Origin: Ectothiorhodosinus mongolicus
GTDB taxonomy: Bacteria > Pseudomonadota > Gammaproteobacteria > Ectothiorhodospirales > Ectothiorhodospiraceae
Length of the DNA: 64,000 bases
Direction: 5' to 3'
Assembly: GCF_022406875.1 (NCBI RefSeq)
Contig: NZ_CP023018.1
Location: forward strand, 469,575-533,574
The position numbers and the translations under genes are program-made. Numbering within the stretch: the stretch's first letter is position 1; each line of letters begins with the position of its first letter. Shown in pieces: positions 54,220-64,000 of the stretch. The notes beneath the pieces were generated by a model, which was not told the DNA's origin, did no database searches, and saw only the letters and a program-made list of their open reading frames with translations.

Positions 54220-57048
54220 ATGCAACATATTATCGTCCGCGGCGCGCGAACCCACAATCTTCGCAATATCGACCTGGTTCTGCCTCGCGACAAACTGATT
54301 GTCATCACCGGCGTATCGGGCTCTGGCAAGTCATCTCTGGCCTTTGACACCCTATTTGCCGAAGGACAGCGGCGTTATGTGGAGTCTCTGTCTGCGTATG
54401 CGCGGCAATTTCTATCGATGATGGAAAAACCCGATGTTGACCATATCGAGGGGCTATCACCCGCTATATCTATCGAACAAAAAACCACCTCGCACAACCC
54501 CCGCTCAACCGTCGGCACAATCACCGAGATCTACGATTATCTGCGCCTGTTATTTGCGCGTGCGGGCACACCTCGCTGCCCAACCCATGGCAACAGCCTA
54601 GAGGCGCAAACGGTCAGTCAAATGGTGGATCAGATCCTGGACTTACCCGAAGGCGACAAACTCATGCTGCTGGCGCCGGTGATCAAAGAGCGCAAAGGCG
54701 AGCACCTGAATCTCTTGGATGGGCTGCGCGCTCAAGGATTTCTTCGCGCCCGTATCGACGGCGAGGTGGTCGATTTAGATGCCACACCGGATCTGGATCC
54801 CAAACGCAAACACAGTATCGAGGTGGTGGTGGATCGCTTCCGTGTTCGCGAGGACCTGCGTCTGCGCCTAGCCGAATCACTAGAAACCGCTCTGCAGCTG
54901 GCTGATGGCATTGCCTTGGTCGCCTGGATGGACGAACCGCATCGTTCACCTTTGGTGTTTTCTGCCAGCTTTGCCTGTCCTGAGTGCGGATATGCGCTAC
55001 AGGAATTAGAGCCGCGGCTGTTTTCCTTTAACAACCCCGTAGGCGCCTGCCCCAGCTGCGATGGCTTGGGCATCCACCAATATTTTGATCCAGCCCGTGT
55101 CGTGGGCCATCCTGAACTCAGCCTAGCCGGCGGAGCGATACGTGGCTGGGATCGACGCAATGCCTACTATTTCCAGCTGCTACAAGCGCTGGCGGCGCAC
55201 TATGATTTTGACATTGAAGCGCCCTTTGAGGGCCTACCGCAGCGCGTGCGTGATGTGGTGCTCTACGGCAGTGGCAGTGAGGCCATTAACTTGGCGTATC
55301 ACAATGCACGTGGTCGTGTATCGCGCACGCAACTGCCTTTTGAAGGCATTATCCCTAATTTGCAACGCCGCTATCATGAAACCGATTCCAACATGGTGCG
55401 CGAGGAGTTAGCCCGCTATCGCGCGACCCAAGCTTGCCCCGATTGCCAGGGAACACGACTCAATACCGCAGCACGCAATGTCTTTGTGGGTGAACGCACC
55501 TTGCCAGAAATCACCGCTTGGCCCATTGGTCAAGCCCGGGCATTTTTTGGTGAGCTGAGTTTACCCGGCAAACAGGGAAAGATTGCGGAAAAAATCGTCA
55601 ACGAGATCAGTGCGCGCCTAGATTTTCTCGTCAATGTGGGTTTGGATTATCTCACCTTGGATCGTTCCGCTGACACGCTCTCAGGCGGTGAAGCCCAGCG
55701 CATTCGCTTGGCCTCACAAATCGGCGCGGGCCTTGTCGGCGTCATGTATATTCTCGACGAACCCTCGATCGGCCTACATCAACGGGATAATGAGCGACTG
55801 CTCAATACGCTCACCTATTTGCGTGATTTAGGGAATACCGTGCTGGTGGTCGAGCATGATGAAGATGCCATTCGGCGCGCTGATCATGTGGTGGATATGG
55901 GGCCAGGCGCGGGTCGTCATGGTGGGCAAGTAGTGGCTCAAGGAACCCCAGAGGAAATCACGCAAACCCCGGAATCACTCACCGGACAATATCTCAGTGG
56001 CCAAAAATGTATCGCCATACCCAGCAAACGCCATCCCCCCAAGAAGACCAAACAATTGGTGATTCATGGTGCCAGTGGCAACAACCTCAAAAGTGTGGAT
56101 GCATCCATACCCATTGGCCTATTTACCTGCGTCACAGGAGTCTCGGGCTCAGGAAAATCCACGCTCATCAACGACACCTTGTACCGCCTAGTTGCCCAGC
56201 GCCTAAACAATGCCTCTGAAGCACCCGCGGCTTTTGCATCGGTCAGCGGCCTCGAGCACATCGATAAGGTCGTCGATATCGATCAAAGCCCGATTGGCCG
56301 CACGCCGCGCTCCAATCCGGCCACCTACACAGGCCTGTTCACGCCGATACGGGAACTGTTTGCTGGCACTCAGGAAGCCCGCTCCCGCGGTTATGCGCCG
56401 GGGCGCTTCTCATTTAATGTGCGTGGCGGCCGCTGCGAGGCATGCCAGGGTGATGGCGTCATCAGAGTAGAGATGCATTTTTTACCGGATGTCTATGTGC
56501 CCTGCGATGTCTGCAAGGGCAAGCGCTACAACCGCGAGACGCTCGATGTGCATTACAAAGGCAAGAATATTCATGAAGTCTTAGAAATGACCGTGGAAGA
56601 TGCCTTGGTCTTTTTTGATGCGGTACCCGTGGTCAAGCGCAAGCTAGAGACGCTGATGGATGTCGGCTTGTCTTATCTGACCTTAGGGCAAAACGCTACC
56701 ACCCTGTCCGGCGGCGAAGCACAACGAGTGAAATTAGCGCGAGAGCTGTCCAAGCGTGACACTGGCCGAACCCTCTATATTCTCGACGAACCGACCACCG
56801 GCTTACATTTTGAGGATGTGGATCAACTGCTCAAAGTGCTGCATCGTCTCAGGGATCACGGCAACACTGTGGTGGTCATCGAACACAATCTGGATGTCAT
56901 TAAAACCGCCGACTGGCTGATGGATTTAGGGCCAGAAGGGGGATCGGGCGGTGGCGTAATTATTGCTGAGGGAACCCCAGAGCAACTTACAACCAACCCG
57001 CACTCGCATACAGGACGCTTCCTAGCCCCACTGCTGAAAAAGAGCTAA
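54220..57048 (+). CDS. uvrA: Excinuclease ABC subunit A
   Basis: UvrA recognises DNA damage with UvrB in nucleotide excision repair. The 942-residue protein has two ABC ATPase modules (Walker [10 protein letters not shown] and GVSGSGKST; signature LSGGEAQR twice). It has zinc fingers (CPECGYALQ with [19 protein letters not shown] with [10 protein letters not shown]) and the UvrB-interaction domain after [14 protein letters not shown]. The length matches E. coli UvrA (940). It is divergent from ssb and ends in a hairpin facing the sHdr cluster. Confidence 0.97.
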
Positions 57049-57071
57049 CCCCCTGATAGCAGGGGGTTAGC
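57044..57071. terminator. Bidirectional hairpin between uvrA and lbpA
   Basis: A perfect 11-bp inverted repeat (GCTAACCCCCT and AGGGGGTTAGC, 6-nt loop) lies between the convergent genes and includes the uvrA TAA stop codon. No long T-run follows on either side, so termination on both strands is likely but not certain. Confidence 0.6.
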
Positions 57072-57080
57072 AGTCAACAC

Positions 57081-57521
57081 TTAGGAGCAGCCCGCAAAGC
57101 CGTCTGCGTCCATCTTCGCCTGTAAGGCGGACTGAGCGTCAGCGCCGGTTTTCAGATCTCCGGATTCGCCATCCCAATCAGCCGGGGTAATTTTCACCAA
57201 CCAGCCATTGCCATAAGGATCTTCATTGATCAAGCCAGGGTTGGCTGCTACGGCACTGTTGATGGCAGCAACATCGCCACTGATCGGAGTTTTCGCTGGA
57301 CCGACCCATTTACCCGACTCGATGGTGGCACAGGACTTATCCTTTTTAACGCCCTTGCCTTCCTTCTTGGGTGTATAGGACACCACCTGACCGGCCAAAG
57401 CACACGCGTAAGCCGTCAAACCCACTGTCACCGTGCCATCGCCCTCTTTACGAACCCAAACATTATTCTCGATGCTGTACATCAGATCATCGGGCATATC
57501 ACAGCCTTTGACTGCACCCAT
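57081..57521 (-). CDS. lbpA2: Lipoate-binding protein LbpA (GcvH-like), second copy
   Basis: A 146-residue GcvH-like carrier of the type encoded in sHdr sulfur-oxidation clusters. The lipoylation site is K71 in CATIESGKWVGP. The hammerhead fold is indicated by SIENNVWVRKEGDGTVTVGL before it and NEDPYGNGWLVKI after it. It differs from glycine-cleavage H proteins, which have an ESVKA-type site, and no glycine-cleavage genes are nearby. Cysteines 7 and 145 are near the ends, as in the other copy. GGAGG lies 6 nt before the ATG. It is the last gene of the cluster, separated from dsrE by a 60-nt AT-rich gap, so it could have a separate promoter. Confidence 0.88.
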   Translation of the reverse strand: MGAVKGCDMPDDLMYSIENNVWVRKEGDGTVTVGLTAYACALAGQVVSYTPKKEGKGVKKDKSCATIESGKWVGPAKTPISGDVAAINSAVAANPGLINEDPYGNGWLVKITPADWDGESGDLKTGADAQSALQAKMDADGFAGCS

Positions 57522-57581
57522 AGTAACCTCCGCAATGTTTAATAAAAACTTCGAAACAACCCTACAATTATCACAGTTTCC

Positions 57582-57986
57582 CTAAAACGATACCACCTTA
57601 TCGGCGCGAAGCATGAGATCGGCCAAGTCACTAGCACGAGCCACGCTGTCTACCTCCTCGATCAAGTCCGTGTCTGGATCAATTTCATAGCCAGGAAGCG
57701 CCGGCCGACATACATGCAATTGCACGCCAGCGCGCTTGGCATCGCGAATGAAATCAATCACCCGCTTACCCCCTTCCATGGCCGTTAGCGGCTCTGCAAT
57801 CCCTTTTTGCATGAGCTTTACGCCTTCCATGGTAAAAAAGATGTGCACTTCGCAATCCATGGCCGCCAAAACCGCCCCCAGATAAAAAGGCGTGGCACAA
57901 CGATGCGGGGTGCTGGGGCCACTGGTCATCACCATCACCACTGTTTGCTCTTCGGCGTCTAGAAAATCATCAGTGGCCATGGGCAT
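57582..57986 (-). CDS. DsrE-family sulfur-transfer protein
   Basis: A 134-residue protein of the DsrE/DsrF-like (YchN) fold. It begins with a strand (TVVMVMTSGPSTPHRC), followed by ATPFYLGAVLAAMDCEVHIFFTMEGV, and a single candidate sulfur-carrying cysteine, C93, in the position after QLHVC. DsrE3-type proteins relay persulfide sulfur to the sHdr/LbpA system in sulfur oxidisers. Here the gene lies 10 nt after the first lbpA and before the second. The usual partners TusA and rhodanese are not seen in the window. A second in-frame ATG at 57980 is equally possible. Confidence 0.82.
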   Translation of the reverse strand: MPMATDDFLDAEEQTVVMVMTSGPSTPHRCATPFYLGAVLAAMDCEVHIFFTMEGVKLMQKGIAEPLTAMEGGKRVIDFIRDAKRAGVQLHVCRPALPGYEIDPDTDLIEEVDSVARASDLADLMLRADKVVSF

Positions 57987-57996
57987 AAAGCCTCAG

Positions 57997-58434
57997 TTAG
58001 CGATTACAGTGAATATTGTCTCGTTTGGCGCGTTGACAATAACCCTCATGAGCAAGCTTGCCGGTCACAAAGGCATCCAAAACGGCTTGCCCGCCACCTT
58101 CGGCTTCGACGCGCGCAATCCAAGTGCCGTAGGGATCCGAGTTCAGCAGATCCGGCTGCTCCATGACATGCTCATTGGCTTCAATGATGGTGCAATTGAA
58201 AAAATTGGGAATGGGGCCCGCCCACTTGCCGCTCTCAATCGTTGCCACTGGCTTGCCAGTCGGGCGCGCCGTACCAGGCCGCCGCACGCGAACATGAAGA
58301 ATGTGACCGGCGATCGCCTGAGACAGGTCGGTCATACCAACACTGAGGCTGTCATCATCCTCTAGGCGCAACCAGATCTGGTACTCGTCGTCATAAAAGA
58401 GTTCAGGGCGAAACTCGCAACCATTGCACTCCAT
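57997..58434 (-). CDS. lbpA1: Lipoate-binding protein LbpA (GcvH-like), first copy
   Basis: A 145-residue GcvH-like lipoate carrier for the sHdr complex. K70 in VATIESGKWAGP is the lipoylation site, in the same ESGKW context as the second copy. It begins MECNGCEF and ends with a cysteine-containing tail (GYCQRA, then HC). The ATG at 58434 is preferred: GAAGG lies about 8 nt upstream and it falls just after the shdrB2 stop. A longer frame to 58497 would overlap shdrB2 by about 50 nt. LbpA is essential for sHdr-based sulfur oxidation in Hyphomicrobium. Confidence 0.88.
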   Translation of the reverse strand: MECNGCEFRPELFYDDEYQIWLRLEDDDSLSVGMTDLSQAIAGHILHVRVRRPGTARPTGKPVATIESGKWAGPIPNFFNCTIIEANEHVMEQPDLLNSDPYGTWIARVEAEGGGQAVLDAFVTGKLAHEGYCQRAKRDNIHCNR

Positions 58435-58444
58435 CACACCGCCT

Positions 58445-59356
58445 TCAGATAACGCCACGTTCCCGCAGGAAACCGATGGAATCGCTGACGTTTTCATGGA
58501 TCCCCAGCTTCCGCGGTGACAAGCCCATGGCCAAGCCTAAGAGTTGGGTAAAATAAAGCACCTTCACCCCAGTTTTGATACCAAACTCAGTCTCGGCGCG
58601 CACTTGGTGCATTTCCAATCCAGAATGACAGGTCGGACATTCGGTGGCGATTACCTCAGCCCCGGAGTCTTCCGCCGCCTGCAGCAAGTTCAGCACCAAC
58701 TGCGTCGAGGTATCAGAGTCACTCAAGGTGTGCGCTCCCCCACAGCAAGAAGTCTTTAATGGGAAGTCCACATTTACTGCGCCAGCCGCCTCCAATAAAT
58801 CATCCATGAAATGCGGCTTATAACTCGATTCCGACCCTGGACCCTGGTCTTTTTCTGGAAAGATTTGCCGCGGCCGGGTGTACATGCAACCGTAGTAGTT
58901 GGCGATTTTGATGCCATTGAGGCTTTTGGTGAATTGTTGCTTCATCCCTTCTGGCCCCAACTCTTCCATCAACCACTCCAAGAGATGGAGCGTGCGGACA
59001 TCGCCGTTATACACCGGATCATCGGATTTGCGCGCCAGATCCTGAACGGTTTGCATCACTTGCTCTGAAGTGGCGGTTTCGTATTCGGCTTTTTTGAGGT
59101 TGTGGTAACAACCATTACAGGGCGCCATGACGGTATCGATACCCATTTGTTCGGCTGCGATGGCTAAATTACGCGCGGAAAGATAGGTTTGCAGCATGGG
59201 GTGAACATTTTTCACCTCCATGGCGCCGCAGCAATTCCAGTCGCGCAGGTTTTCCATCTCCAAACCCAGCGCCTTCACCAACACGCGGGTGGACTTATCG
59301 TAGGGACCACCGGAGCCTTCCAACGCACATCCCGGATAGTAGGCAACCTTAGCCAT
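58445..59356 (-). CDS. shdrB2: sHdrB2, heterodisulfide reductase subunit B-like protein (two complete CCG domains)
   Basis: A 303-residue protein with two CCG domains that, in methanogen HdrB, bind non-cubane [4Fe-4S] clusters. Both cysteine sets are complete: C10, C42-C43, C80-x2-C83 and C157, C204-C205, C240-x2-C243. Contexts include YYPGC, DWNCCG, APCNGC and SCCGGAHT. It should be part of the cytoplasmic sHdr complex that oxidises sulfane sulfur. The ATG at 59356 follows a GGAGG site and overlaps the shdrC2 stop by 8 nt; a longer frame reaches 59383. Confidence 0.92.
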   Translation of the reverse strand: MAKVAYYPGCALEGSGGPYDKSTRVLVKALGLEMENLRDWNCCGAMEVKNVHPMLQTYLSARNLAIAAEQMGIDTVMAPCNGCYHNLKKAEYETATSEQVMQTVQDLARKSDDPVYNGDVRTLHLLEWLMEELGPEGMKQQFTKSLNGIKIANYYGCMYTRPRQIFPEKDQGPGSESSYKPHFMDDLLEAAGAVNVDFPLKTSCCGGAHTLSDSDTSTQLVLNLLQAAEDSGAEVIATECPTCHSGLEMHQVRAETEFGIKTGVKVLYFTQLLGLAMGLSPRKLGIHENVSDSIGFLRERGVI

Positions 59357-60065
59357 GAGCGGCCTCCTTCTGTTCACGAACATACTGCTTCAACACATCG
59401 CCCGTCTTGCCCCATGAGCTGGTCTTGGGCTTCATCACCTGATTACGCGCCATACGCATACCGAGATGCACCGGCAGGTACTTCATCAGGCGCACGACAA
59501 AGACCTTCAACCATTCCTGGAACAGGGGCTGGCCAGTGCGCTTGTAAAAAGCCATCAGCACGTGTCCATCTTCAATACGGCCACGCTTGTAAATCAGATC
59601 GGTGAATTCTTCGTCGAAAATCGTCGATGGCGTTTTTTCGGTAATGCCTTCCTCTTCCATCCAGTGCGCCAAGGCCTTCATCACACCTTCAGGGCGCACA
59701 TCCTTAGGACAAATGTTGGTGCACTTGTTACAGGACACGCACTGCCAAATAATGTCTTTGTCTTTGATCAGCTCTTCTTTCAATCCCAGTCGCACCGCAT
59801 AAATCCAATAGCGCGGATTAAATTGCACATTTTGTGCGTACATGGTGCAGGAGTTGGTACAAGAACCACACTGCCAGCAGCGATGCACGTTCTCTGCGCC
59901 GGGGTATTGCTGCAGCATTTTCTCAAAACCGTCGTCATAGTCGGTAATCGTGCGCGGCGTGATCATGGTGTTCCAGTGACCGGAAACATCCACACCATCG
60001 ACCACCAGCTGTTCCGACTCCAGTAAGCGCTCGGGTTCAATTAGTGACTTTTCATGAATCGCCAT
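59349..60065 (-). CDS. shdrC2: sHdrC2, heterodisulfide reductase subunit C-like ferredoxin
   Basis: A 238-residue iron-sulfur protein of the HdrC type with two [4Fe-4S] motifs: C63, C66, C69, C73 (CWQCGSCTNSC) and C109, C112, C115, C119 (CVSCNKCTNICP). HdrC passes electrons between the flavin subunit and HdrB. The second halves of the sHdr complex are encoded here as C2-B2. It begins 34 nt after the conserved unknown gene and overlaps shdrB2. Confidence 0.92.
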   Translation of the reverse strand: MAIHEKSLIEPERLLESEQLVVDGVDVSGHWNTMITPRTITDYDDGFEKMLQQYPGAENVHRCWQCGSCTNSCTMYAQNVQFNPRYWIYAVRLGLKEELIKDKDIIWQCVSCNKCTNICPKDVRPEGVMKALAHWMEEEGITEKTPSTIFDEEFTDLIYKRGRIEDGHVLMAFYKRTGQPLFQEWLKVFVVRLMKYLPVHLGMRMARNQVMKPKTSSWGKTGDVLKQYVREQKEAAHG

Positions 60066-60099
60066 GTCGTTCTCCGCACTTCGTGCTTAACAATTCGGC

Positions 60100-60906
60100 T
60101 CAGTGCAAGGGCAAGGAGGGTGCATTGCGGGCAGGCCGCGTATTGCGCCGCTCATCAATACCCAGCAGCTTTACCACCATATCCATCGGGTCTTGTTGAC
60201 CGCCAAATTCGCTTTTAAAGATACCCAGGCTGCCGGATATGGAATCCATATAGTCGGCATAACCCCGGGCGAGAATTAAATCAGTAATAAACGGCAGATC
60301 GCGGTAGAAGCCGCTGGCCTCCAGGTGCTCAACAAACCAGGCACGAACACCTTCAAGACCCTCCGGCGACACCTCTAACGGCAGCGATTGCACCGTGTCC
60401 GCACCCGCCACAAACTCACGCACCGCACCACTCATGGTCTGACTGTCCCAAACCCAGCGTGTCATCAACGGCAAGAGCTCCGGAAAGCGGAAATGCAGGA
60501 TCTCTGCTGCCAAGTCCCAGGCCGCACCTTCCTGCTTGCGACCGCTGACCGGTAACTTGTCACAAAAATCACGCATGCGTTCCAAGATGCTTCCCTTGCT
60601 ATAAACCAACTCTAGGATGGCATCGGCGAAATGCACCTGCTCCAGGCCTTTGAGTGGCTCGGCCAATTTTCGCCGCGCTGGAAACACGCATTCGAGCAAT
60701 ACCTGAGTCACCTCACCGGGAAGGCTATCGGGTCGGCGTTCCGGGAGCGCCGCCGCGAACACTTGATGTTTGTTGCGCAGCGCATCCACATAGCTTTCCA
60801 CACCGCCCCGCTCGCGAACATCATCCAGCAGACTGGCCAACTTACTGGCAGCGATCTGCGGCTCTAGACGAAAATCGAGCGCGGCGGGTTGAATCTGCGC
60901 GAGCAT
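60100..60906 (-). CDS. Conserved sHdr-cluster protein of unknown function (hyp)
   Basis: A 268-residue soluble, mainly helical protein that always occupies this place, between shdrA and shdrC2, in known sHdr clusters. I see no cofactor motif, membrane helix or signal. It has an Arg/Glu-rich N-terminal half, an aromatic/acidic middle (RWVWDSQTMSG), and a C-terminal half with ARGYADYMDSISGSLG. It is co-transcribed, 8 nt after shdrA. Its conserved position implies a structural or assembly role in the complex, but its function is unknown. Confidence 0.85.
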   Translation of the reverse strand: MLAQIQPAALDFRLEPQIAASKLASLLDDVRERGGVESYVDALRNKHQVFAAALPERRPDSLPGEVTQVLLECVFPARRKLAEPLKGLEQVHFADAILELVYSKGSILERMRDFCDKLPVSGRKQEGAAWDLAAEILHFRFPELLPLMTRWVWDSQTMSGAVREFVAGADTVQSLPLEVSPEGLEGVRAWFVEHLEASGFYRDLPFITDLILARGYADYMDSISGSLGIFKSEFGGQQDPMDMVVKLLGIDERRNTRPARNAPSLPLH

Positions 60907-60914
60907 CGGCTTCT

Positions 60915-61967
60915 TCAGCTGGCCTGACGCATCAATGCCACGAGGTCACCCACCGCGCGACTGGCCGCTGCCGCACCCTGAGAAATCGAGTCATCGATGG
61001 TCTCGGGGCCGTAAGCCGCACCACAGGAGTAAACACCGGGACGGCTGGTGCCGCAGGGATTGGTGTAATGCTCAGCGCGCTTAATGAATCCATGATGCTC
61101 CAACTCAATCCCGAACACTTGCGAGATTTCCGGGTTGTCCTGGTTGGGATCCATACCAATGGCATGCACCACGATATCAAAGGGAATAACGATGGGACGC
61201 TTGACCAGGGTGTCTTCACCCTTCACCAAGAGGCGTCCATCGGGTGCCGCCGTAACCTCGGCAATACGCGCTTTGACGAACTTGGTTTTGAATTCTTCCT
61301 GAGACTTCCAGTAGAACTTGTCCTCATACAAGCCGAAGGTGCGGATATCCATATAGTAGATAAACACCTCGGTCTTGGGTGACATCTCTTTAATCTCGAT
61401 CGCCATATTGGCTGAGACTGTGCAGCAAATTTTCGAACACCATTCACGACCAATCTGGCGATCACGTGAGCCCACACACAAGAGAATGGCAACGCGTTCT
61501 GGGACTCGGCCATCAGACGGGCATTTCAACTCGCCACGGCCAATCATCTGTTCCATCTGGGTGGTGGTCAGCACATCTGGAAAAGTACCAAACCCCCACT
61601 CGGGCTTATTGACTGAATCAAAGTGGGTGAAGCCGGTGGCCAAAACCACCGCCCCGGCATTCACCGTTTCATTATTGGACAGCGTGGCCGTGAAGTTACC
61701 AGCCTCTCCGTCCAACTTGGTCACCTTCGCGCCTTTGTGAATGCTCACGTTGGCATCATCCTCGACCCGTTTGACCATGCGGCCGATGGCATCCTTGGCC
61801 CATTCGCCTGAAGGGACCAACTTGGCGTATCCCGACAGAATCGGTGCGCCACCCAGGGTGTCTTCCTTTTCCACCATCACGGCTTTGTAACCCGAGGCAG
61901 CGACCTGCGCTGCCGCGGAAAGACCGGACGGACCGGAGCCGACGATCAAAACGGTATCTTGGGACAT
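60915..61967 (-). CDS. shdrA: sHdrA, flavin and Fe-S subunit of the sulfur-oxidising Hdr complex
   Basis: A 350-residue flavoprotein related to methanogen HdrA. The N-terminal FAD loop is VLIVGSGPSGLSAAAQVAA. A cysteine group C164, C177, C181, C182 (LLCVGSRDR, WCSKICC) is placed to bind a [4Fe-4S] cluster near the flavin. A second dinucleotide-binding-like region follows, with SCGAAYGP near the end. It is much shorter than methanogen HdrA and lacks that protein's extra ferredoxin domains, as is typical of sHdrA. It starts 3 nt after shdrB1. Confidence 0.92.
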   Translation of the reverse strand: MSQDTVLIVGSGPSGLSAAAQVAASGYKAVMVEKEDTLGGAPILSGYAKLVPSGEWAKDAIGRMVKRVEDDANVSIHKGAKVTKLDGEAGNFTATLSNNETVNAGAVVLATGFTHFDSVNKPEWGFGTFPDVLTTTQMEQMIGRGELKCPSDGRVPERVAILLCVGSRDRQIGREWCSKICCTVSANMAIEIKEMSPKTEVFIYYMDIRTFGLYEDKFYWKSQEEFKTKFVKARIAEVTAAPDGRLLVKGEDTLVKRPIVIPFDIVVHAIGMDPNQDNPEISQVFGIELEHHGFIKRAEHYTNPCGTSRPGVYSCGAAYGPETIDDSISQGAAAASRAVGDLVALMRQAS

Positions 61968-61970
61968 TTC

Positions 61971-63377
61971 TTAGCCTCCGTATGCCAATTCTGGCTTGTA
62001 AAGGTACTCAATATTGCCGGCTTCCACTTCCTTCAAATAGGCTTGGAAGTTTTTCTTCGCCTGATCCCAGGAGATACCCATCTTCTCGACGAGATCTTCA
62101 CAAGGTGAGGCATGCCATTGCAGCTGCACGATCTTTAATGGATCTGCGCCACAAGCCAAAGCGGCAAACTGAATTTCCGCCATGATAGGAACCTGATAGT
62201 TCTGCTCATGGGCTTTACCGATCCACTGATTCTTGTCCATGGTCGTGACACAACCGGTGTCGTTGGCCAGCATCACATCTGCATTGGCTTCTTCACGCAC
62301 CACTCGAATTTTCCGATTCATGGTGAAGGAACGCGTGAATTCACGCTCAGAGATAATGTGGCGGAATCCAAAGCCACAGCAGTCATACCAGGTGGAATAG
62401 TCAATCACCTGTGCACCCAAAGCTTGGGCCATAGAGGTGATGATCGCGGTGCGGTTACCACCCAAAACTTCCGGATCATAAACCGCATCCTCGTGGATCA
62501 TTTTGTAGTAATGACAAGCCACGTGAGCGGTCGCACGAATGTGTGACACGTCGATCTTCTGCAGATCGCTGGCAATGCGATTACGCATCACATGCACCCA
62601 CTCGGAGTAGTGAATCACCTCTTCTGGGATCACTAACTTGCCATCAACCAAGCGGCCCAGCTTGCCGAGAATCTTAGTGACTTTTTCACGCAGCTCCGCC
62701 GACTCAATCAGATATTTGCGGATCTCTTTGTAGTTACCAAAAGAGGTGCCGCAATGCACTAACGGGTAGAAATGACCCAGTTCGTGGCCATGCTGCTTAC
62801 CAGAGACATAGGCTTGGTGGAAGTTTCGTAGGAACACCGCCGCCAAGGACTCGACGTTGCCAATGCCCGAACCATGATAGTTCCAAGCCGTGCAAGAGGT
62901 CTGATCAGTCTCATCCAGATAATCCTTACCCGGCACGAAACCCAGTTCATTCATCACCCATAACAAAGAAGTAGGGTAGCCGGGAATATTGCCGCACTGA
63001 CCGCAGGACTTGTGGTGCCAAAGCTGTTTAGTGGGAATCTTTTTGTCCCAGCCAAACAGAGTTTTAACGCCAATAGGTTCGTGCTGATCACCCACACGGT
63101 GGATGATGATCTCGCCTTCTTTTTCCAGTTCGTACATGTGCTCACGCACATCGTCCATACGATCACCCAGATCGATGGTGCGACGATCGACGTGTTTGCG
63201 CACCCAATCTGTGGCCTGAACCGCTTCCTCGCGGGACAGATCGGTGGACTGAAAAAAGGATCCGTGGCCGGCGATGCCTTGACCATCGGTATTGTGGAAT
63301 CCGGGCTTCATGGCACCAGGGCCAGCGCCCTCTGCCGTTGCATTGTGACCGCCAGGGGTATGTTCATTCGATGACAT
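61971..63377 (-). CDS. shdrB1: sHdrB1, heterodisulfide reductase subunit B-like protein (degenerate CCG domains)
   Basis: A 468-residue HdrB relative, longer than sHdrB2 because of a roughly 115-residue N-terminal extension rich in Gly, His and charged residues. Its CCG motifs are incomplete. The first set has C125 and C128 (SCGQC), a lone C162 (TSCTAW) and C209 (HCGTS). The second has C288, C333-C334 (DCCGFG) and C376 (DTGCVTT), without the final cysteine. It probably binds fewer or different clusters than sHdrB2. It lies 48 nt after shdrC1 and 3 nt before shdrA. Confidence 0.9.
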   Translation of the reverse strand: MSSNEHTPGGHNATAEGAGPGAMKPGFHNTDGQGIAGHGSFFQSTDLSREEAVQATDWVRKHVDRRTIDLGDRMDDVREHMYELEKEGEIIIHRVGDQHEPIGVKTLFGWDKKIPTKQLWHHKSCGQCGNIPGYPTSLLWVMNELGFVPGKDYLDETDQTSCTAWNYHGSGIGNVESLAAVFLRNFHQAYVSGKQHGHELGHFYPLVHCGTSFGNYKEIRKYLIESAELREKVTKILGKLGRLVDGKLVIPEEVIHYSEWVHVMRNRIASDLQKIDVSHIRATAHVACHYYKMIHEDAVYDPEVLGGNRTAIITSMAQALGAQVIDYSTWYDCCGFGFRHIISEREFTRSFTMNRKIRVVREEANADVMLANDTGCVTTMDKNQWIGKAHEQNYQVPIMAEIQFAALACGADPLKIVQLQWHASPCEDLVEKMGISWDQAKKNFQAYLKEVEAGNIEYLYKPELAYGG

Positions 63378-63425
63378 GTTCGGGTACTCCTCTCGTTAAA
63401 TTCAGGTCAAAAGAATAGTCGGGAA

Positions 63426-64000
63426 TCAGTCTTCTTCCTGCTCCTCAAGCCACTCTTCGTATTCCTCCCGTTTTTCGTCGATGAAATCCTCAATAACGTC
63501 AAAGAGGTTTTCATCCATGAGTTCCAATGATTTCAGAACCCCCGTCATCTCCCAGATCGTGTACATCTCTACGGATGTCTTTAAAGAAACTTCCCAGGCG
63601 GTGTCCGTGGTCTGCATGGTCTGCATCGGAATCGCCTTACGCAGCAACTTCAAATCGCCTTCCACTTTCTGAATATTCGGACCCCAGTCCGGGAAGTGGT
63701 CAGGCTGAATCATATCGGGTGAAAGCTGGTTACCGGTGGTGATCAATTTGAGCATCACGCGTCCAAACGGACGCAGCACATCCTTGGCCGACTGCATTTC
63801 ATGTTTGATCGCGACCTCGCGCATGATGGCGACAAGCCCGCCCGGAGAATTCTTGAAAGGACAGCGGGCGGCACAGGTCATGCACTGCGCACACGCCCAG
63901 ATCTTTTCCTGCATGGCGTCATAAATTTGTTCGACGTTTTCGGTCCACAACAGCTGCACGATCTCGCGGGGACTGTAGTCATAGAATTGAGCGGACGGGC
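63426..64000 (-). CDS. shdrC1: sHdrC1, heterodisulfide reductase subunit C-like ferredoxin (5' end outside window)
   Basis: The frame is open through base 64000, so the N terminus is missing. An internal GTG at 63959 is not the real start, because coding-like sequence (FYDYSPREI) continues upstream. The visible 191 residues include a [4Fe-4S] motif CAQCMTCAARCP. This corresponds to the second ferredoxin motif of HdrC, so the first motif, if present, lies outside the window. The C-terminal part is helical and ends very acidic (EEWLEEQEED). It is the first visible gene of the sHdr cluster. Confidence 0.88.
   Translation of the reverse strand, partial: PSAQFYDYSPREIVQLLWTENVEQIYDAMQEKIWACAQCMTCAARCPFKNSPGGLVAIMREVAIKHEMQSAKDVLRPFGRVMLKLITTGNQLSPDMIQPDHFPDWGPNIQKVEGDLKLLRKAIPMQTMQTTDTAWEVSLKTSVEMYTIWEMTGVLKSLELMDENLFDVIEDFIDEKREEYEEWLEEQEED

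Follow-up and report, generated by a model that had tools for sequence, protein, structure and literature searches.

A type I sHdr-LbpA sulfur-oxidation cluster in Ectothiorhodosinus mongolicus, a genome in which the dedicated lipoate-assembly genes were not found

Organization and identity of the shdr-lbpA cluster

The window analysed, a stretch of 64,000 nucleotides of Ectothiorhodosinus mongolicus (NZ_CP023018.1, positions 469,575-533,574; assembly GCF_022406875.1), carried at its right edge a cluster of nine genes for a sulfur-oxidising heterodisulfide reductase-like (sHdr) system and its lipoate-binding proteins (LbpA). The genome (G000) was a single contig of 1,995,095 bases and 99.95% complete, and genome-wide presence or absence was called from targeted searches. 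All nine genes were on the minus strand, at 57081-64109 in window coordinates, in the order shdrC1-B1-A-H-C2-B2-lbpA-dsrE-lbpA that an earlier note had read from the sequence, with shdrH as "hyp". The features are as follows.

63426..64000, minus strand: shdrC1, carrier of two [4Fe-4S] clusters; extends past the window edge to window-equivalent 64109 (227 amino acids in total)
61971..63377, minus strand: shdrB1, CCG-domain protein, proposed catalytic subunit
60915..61967, minus strand: shdrA, flavoprotein; closest solved relative Hyphomicrobium denitrificans sHdrA (6TJR)
60100..60906, minus strand: shdrH ("hyp"), all-helical protein with no Pfam, NCBIfam or solved-fold match
59349..60065, minus strand: shdrC2, electron carrier with two [4Fe-4S] clusters
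58445..59362, minus strand: shdrB2, two CCG motifs; start probably at 59362
57997..58434, minus strand: upstream lbpA, coding for a lipoate-binding protein in which the lipoyl site is ESGKW
57582..57986, minus strand: dsrE, sulfurtransferase with invariant Cys30 and Cys93
57081..57521, minus strand: downstream lbpA, coding for a lipoate-binding protein with the same ESGKW lipoyl site and with N- and C-terminal Cys
57044..57071: inverted repeat with perfect arms of 12 nucleotides and a 4-nucleotide loop, in the gap separating the stop codons of lbpA and uvrA

The start of the upstream lbpA was moved from 58497 to 58434 because its relatives begin with MECNGCEF. Domain and motif searches agreed with the heterodisulfide reductase (Hdr)-type iron-sulfur and CCG motifs, the two lipoyl sites and the DsrE fold reported in the earlier note. 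In Pfam and NCBIfam, both LbpAs matched GCV_H, DsrE matched DsrE, B1 and B2 matched CCG domains, C1 and C2 matched Fer4, and sHdrA matched the pyridine-nucleotide-disulfide oxidoreductases. Two CxxCxxCxxxC motifs were present in each of C1 and C2, CCG occurred once in B1 and twice in B2, and both LbpAs carried ATIESGKW. The product of shdrH, for which these domain searches gave no match, was modelled with confidence as an all-helical protein (predicted local distance difference test score, pLDDT, 89; predicted template modelling score, pTM, 0.88), and comparison of the model with solved structures in PDB gave no significant match. Beyond base 64000, tusA was located at window-equivalent 64430-64660, as had been anticipated, followed on the opposite strand by genes for an M48 peptidase, soxY, soxZ and soxB. 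The rhodanese gene expected in the same region did not adjoin the cluster; four rhodaneses were encoded elsewhere in the genome.

The sHdrA protein aligned over its full length with H. denitrificans sHdrA (484 bits to 6TJR, residues 5-340), whereas its match to methanogen-type HdrA was partial, at about 209 bits, and far under the NCBIfam HdrA cut-offs; a methanogen-type Hdr was rejected on these grounds and the sHdr-LbpA identity was upheld. In the tree, the check that had been proposed for LbpA, both LbpAs grouped with LbpA orthologues, the two LbpA types being split at 100/100. They fell away from the organism's own GcvH, a bona fide copy of which is encoded elsewhere in the genome, so that plain GcvH was rejected too. 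Both had the conserved lipoyl lysine and Cys residues near both termini and grouped with LbpA1/LbpA2.

The published criterion for a type I sHdr system is that the core genes shdrC1-B1-A-H-C2-B2 form a single syntenic cluster (PMC11582611), which was the arrangement observed here. The shdrC2 and shdrB2 genes were separate, not fused into shdrB3 with etfAB as in type II, and no etf gene was found in or beside the cluster; thus, this is a type I sHdr-LbpA system. Since its gene order equals that of the published Thioalkalivibrio operon, the cluster as such is already known, and because the same order is kept in dozens of named genomes it is not a product of chance.

Across 62-80 relatives, the iron-sulfur cysteines of C1, C2, B1 and B2, 5 of the 7 Cys of sHdrA, and Cys30 and Cys93 of DsrE were conserved in 99-100%. 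All nine reading frames were open. Compared with Ectothiorhodospira haloalkaliphila, the sHdr proteins showed nonsynonymous divergence (dN) of 0.03-0.27 with synonymous divergence (dS) mostly saturated, and the LbpAs diverged no faster than between other species. By these sequence comparisons, the shdr-lbpA genes are under purifying selection, the sHdr genes strongly so.

Absence of the lipoate-assembly cassette and the genome around it

In the relatives, examined through a scan of 80 shdr loci in named genomes, the order was tusA-C1-B1-A-hyp-C2-B2-lbpA-dsrE-lbpA, mostly followed by lipS1-slpl(AB)-lipT-lipS2; among the 58 named loci that extended far enough to show it, 56 had lipS1 directly after the downstream lbpA. 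The two radical S-adenosylmethionine (SAM) proteins of these loci had LipS1 and LipS2 as their best NCBIfam matches, though under the curated cut-offs. The earlier note had placed lipoate-assembly genes beyond base 64000 in E. mongolicus as well, an expectation that was not borne out. Six-frame searches of the whole genome gave no match to LipS1 or LipS2 at E<=1e-3 and no shdr-type slpl(AB), lipS1, slpl and lipS2 being the parts of the cassette searched for, with no separate search for lipT. Both lipS1 and lipS2 were present in all nine genus-mates (9/9), and across the order, taking genomes with sHdrB1 and a completeness of 90% or more, LipS1 was found in 33 of 35, the exceptions being E. mongolicus and G012, a 4.0-Mb member of the family. 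The 13 radical-SAM proteins of E. mongolicus included none that was LipS-like: ten were assigned by curated models (MoaA, RimO, BioB, BchE, HemW, EpmB, HemN, MnmL, RlmN and LipA), and the others were MiaB, encoded in the window, and QueE and a KamA-like protein, both read from sequence.

Where the relatives continue into the cassette, E. mongolicus has the hairpin of 57044..57071, across which the lbpA stop (57081) faces the uvrA stop (57048), and which is likely a bidirectional terminator. We conclude that the dedicated slpl(AB)-lipS1-lipT-lipS2 cassette, as represented by the three parts searched for, was lost and that the sLpl(AB)-LipS1/S2 pathway is not represented in this genome.

A further case was observed in G012 (L088, L100), in which the shdr genes are kept, lipS1 and lipS2 were not found, and the place of the cassette is occupied, as read from sequence, by an apparent TonB-receptor-type gene and an apparent transposase gene. 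This loss is probably independent of that in E. mongolicus. G012 fits Thioalkalivibrio nitratireducens, a probable assignment of our own; that species also has reverse Dsr (PMC6382920). In E. mongolicus, a search for NIR_SIR, the sulfite-reductase fold family that covers DsrAB, found no member, with control matches in 11 of 14 genomes; therefore, reverse Dsr is not a backup here. With no protein of this family, the organism would also have no sulfite reductase of that kind for assimilation and probably depends on reduced sulfur.

At 2.0 Mb, the genome was below that of every genus-mate (2.6-3.8 Mb), and the G+C content of the window was 54.7%, compared with 63-68% in the shdr loci examined in two of the genus-mates. 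Together these values suggest genome reduction, and we take E. mongolicus for a reduced-genome relative of Ectothiorhodospira. The genome encoded two Photo_RC proteins (read as PufL/PufM), a BchE matching its curated model, and RuBisCO (G000:C1:1686652-1688310, L012 and G000:C1:1011473-1012399 for this set of genes); with these genes in an unusually small genome, the organism resembles a purple sulfur bacterium that has undergone genome reduction. Therefore, it is most likely a phototrophic sulfur oxidiser and not simply a chemolithotroph. Of the chemolithotrophic sulfur oxidation proposed in the earlier note, the sulfur oxidation stands and the chemolithotrophic part is at least incomplete.

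Lipoylation of the LbpAs: proposed route and alternatives

Three proteins with the PF03099 domain were encoded, namely BirA (read from sequence), LipB, and Lpl2 (C1:341967-343034), the sole LplA-type ligase of the genome. LipB and LipA scored above the curated cut-offs, and Lpl2 matched the ligase catalytic domain. Lpl2 was 72% identical to its orthologues in G009 and G001 (E. haloalkaliphila), which also carry a shdr-linked sLpl of about 31% identity, and it adjoined fumarase in E. mongolicus (L024:8393-11038) and in the genus-mate G009 (L101:9379-12049). In the tree, a split supported at 96/98 set the Lpl2 clade apart from sLpl, although deep placement was unsure given the long branches of the outgroups and of E. 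coli LplA. Lpl2 was considered as the missing sLpl(AB) and rejected, synteny and tree showing a separate paralogue shared with sLpl-bearing relatives.

In the published scheme, sulfane sulfur is freed by Sox proteins in the periplasm, delivered by cytoplasmic sulfurtransferases, TusA and DsrE among them, presented on LbpA lipoate and converted to sulfite by sHdr (PMC6067878). The lipoate is described there as attached specifically by sLpl(AB) and completed by LipS1/S2 (PMC10332631, PMC6067878). The genome of E. mongolicus contradicts this rule unless another enzyme takes over: either the LbpAs are lipoylated by something else or the current picture is wrong. The reading that we favour, and hold to be rather probable, is that a complete and functional type I sHdr-LbpA system persists after loss of the dedicated cassette, its LbpAs being lipoylated by resident enzymes. 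Sox proteins would free sulfane sulfur in the periplasm, TusA and DsrE would pass sulfur to the lipoate on both LbpAs, and the sHdr complex would oxidise the bound sulfur to sulfite in the cytoplasm. Octanoate or lipoate could be attached to the LbpAs by the fumarase-linked Lpl2, or else by LipB, and LipA would insert the sulfur. We prefer Lpl2 with LipA, since Lpl2 belongs to the ligase family, stands apart from the canonical LipB route and was retained in a reduced genome. Both the lipoylation of the LbpAs as such and the choice of enzyme are our inference.

Several observations weigh against this proposal. LbpAs of other species were left unmodified by the lipoylation enzymes of E. coli or B. 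subtilis (PMC6067878), and deletion of slpl(AB) in H. denitrificans yielded apo-LbpA and blocked thiosulfate oxidation (PMC10332631). Lpl2 is present also in relatives that keep the cassette and is thus not obviously an LbpA enzyme. The surroundings of the lipoyl sites differed by scattered single changes, such as I67 in place of an otherwise invariant V, and no visible change near the lipoyl lysine hinted at a new partner.

The strongest alternative, which we regard as unlikely, is that LipB and LipA modify the LbpAs directly by the ordinary octanoyl-acyl carrier protein route, Lpl2 being irrelevant and the published failures reflecting the use of foreign enzymes. The presence of well-scoring LipB and LipA fits this, as does the report that LipS1/S2 are found in just 74.3% of bacteria with sHdr (PMC10332631). 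However, LbpAs of sulfur oxidisers went unmodified by canonical systems (PMC6067878), and H. denitrificans without sLpl(AB) made only apo-LbpA (PMC10332631), though canonical pathways are reported in such organisms as well.

Decay is an improbable explanation, by which the cluster would be a relic whose LbpAs are never lipoylated since the cassette went; sulfur oxidation would then end at the zero-valent stage or follow a different path. The 2.0-Mb genome, set beside 2.6-3.8 Mb in genus-mates, is in keeping with decay, and so is G012, which likewise keeps shdr without lipS1/lipS2 and, as probable T. nitratireducens, would have reverse Dsr as a backup (PMC6382920). Yet the nine frames are open, the catalytic residues are intact, dN is far under dS, sHdrC1 and B1 are 96% and 92-93% identical to those of E. 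haloalkaliphila, and the NIR_SIR search found no reverse-Dsr replacement in the genome. Slightly less credible still is an artefact of assembly, the cassette having been dropped or lying on a replicon absent from the assembly. That every genus-mate has cassette genes would agree with it, but the assembly is one nearly complete contig, the perfect hairpin facing uvrA gives the operon a tidy and natural close, and lipS1, slpl and lipS2 are all missing genome-wide and not only at the locus. An ordinary copy of the known system with its lipoate-assembly genes elsewhere in the genome is scarcely credible, being refuted by the six-frame searches, which found no LipS1, LipS2 or shdr-type sLpl, unless the assembly is incomplete.

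Tanabe and colleagues raise the question of whether LipS1/S2 are strictly required for LbpA assembly (PMC10332631). Among the counter-examples, many may stem from incomplete genomes or may carry reverse Dsr, as the probable T. nitratireducens would; what appears to be new here is a near-complete LipS-less genome with no reverse Dsr found, while its congeners retain the cassette. More tentatively than the resident-enzyme proposal as a whole, and with somewhat less than even confidence, sHdr may be the sole recognised cytoplasmic sulfur-to-sulfite enzyme of E. mongolicus, its LbpAs matured by a replacement (Lpl2 or LipB, with LipA). If so, the sLpl(AB)-LipS1/S2 machinery would be dispensable in nature, and Lpl2, if it is the enzyme concerned, would define a novel class of lipoate ligases acting on LbpA. 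E. mongolicus narrows the candidate LbpA-maturing enzymes to Lpl2, LipB and LipA.

Comparison with known sHdr-LbpA systems

The Thioalkalivibrio operon hdrC1B1A-hyp-hdrC2B2-lbpA1-dsrE-lbpA2 (PMC6382920) is identical in gene order and content to the E. mongolicus cluster. In most of these genomes sHdrB1 is 89-91% identical to that of E. mongolicus, and tusA and Sox genes lie upstream in both. The Thioalkalivibrio loci usually run on into lipS1-slpl(AB)-lipT-lipS2, whereas the E. mongolicus operon stops at lbpA. Thioalkalivibrio-type genomes also encode a third protein resembling these ligases, which shares 25-30% identity with Lpl2 and lies at most about 25 kb from shdr (L096:7960-8742, L100:10275-11063).

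With the E. haloalkaliphila locus (L104), the cluster is shared from soxB to lbpA, with identities of 96% for sHdrC1, 92-93% for B1, 93% for B2 and 75-79% for the LbpAs; that locus continues into lipS1-slpl(AB)-lipT-lipS2, and the species has Lpl2 elsewhere as well. The core subunits are also shared with the sHdr-LbpA2 system of H. denitrificans, whose sHdrA (6TJR) is the best solved match, but which needs slpl(AB), a gene not found in E. mongolicus, for LbpA2 modification and thiosulfate oxidation (PMC10332631, PMC6067878). The Group I arrangement, with an lplA-like ligase and two radical-SAM proteins in the hdr-lbpA operon (PMC6067878), is not that of E. mongolicus, in which maturation genes were found neither beside lbpA nor elsewhere in the genome.

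A parallel exists with the sHdr genomes, roughly one in four among sHdr bacteria, that are published as lacking LipS1/S2 (PMC10332631), and with three bacterial sHdr genomes described as without maturation genes (PMC6067878). Like those LipS1/S2-less genomes, E. mongolicus has sHdr while LipS1/S2 were not found. In its case no reverse Dsr was found either, and the loss occurred inside a genus of which all nine other genomes keep the genes.

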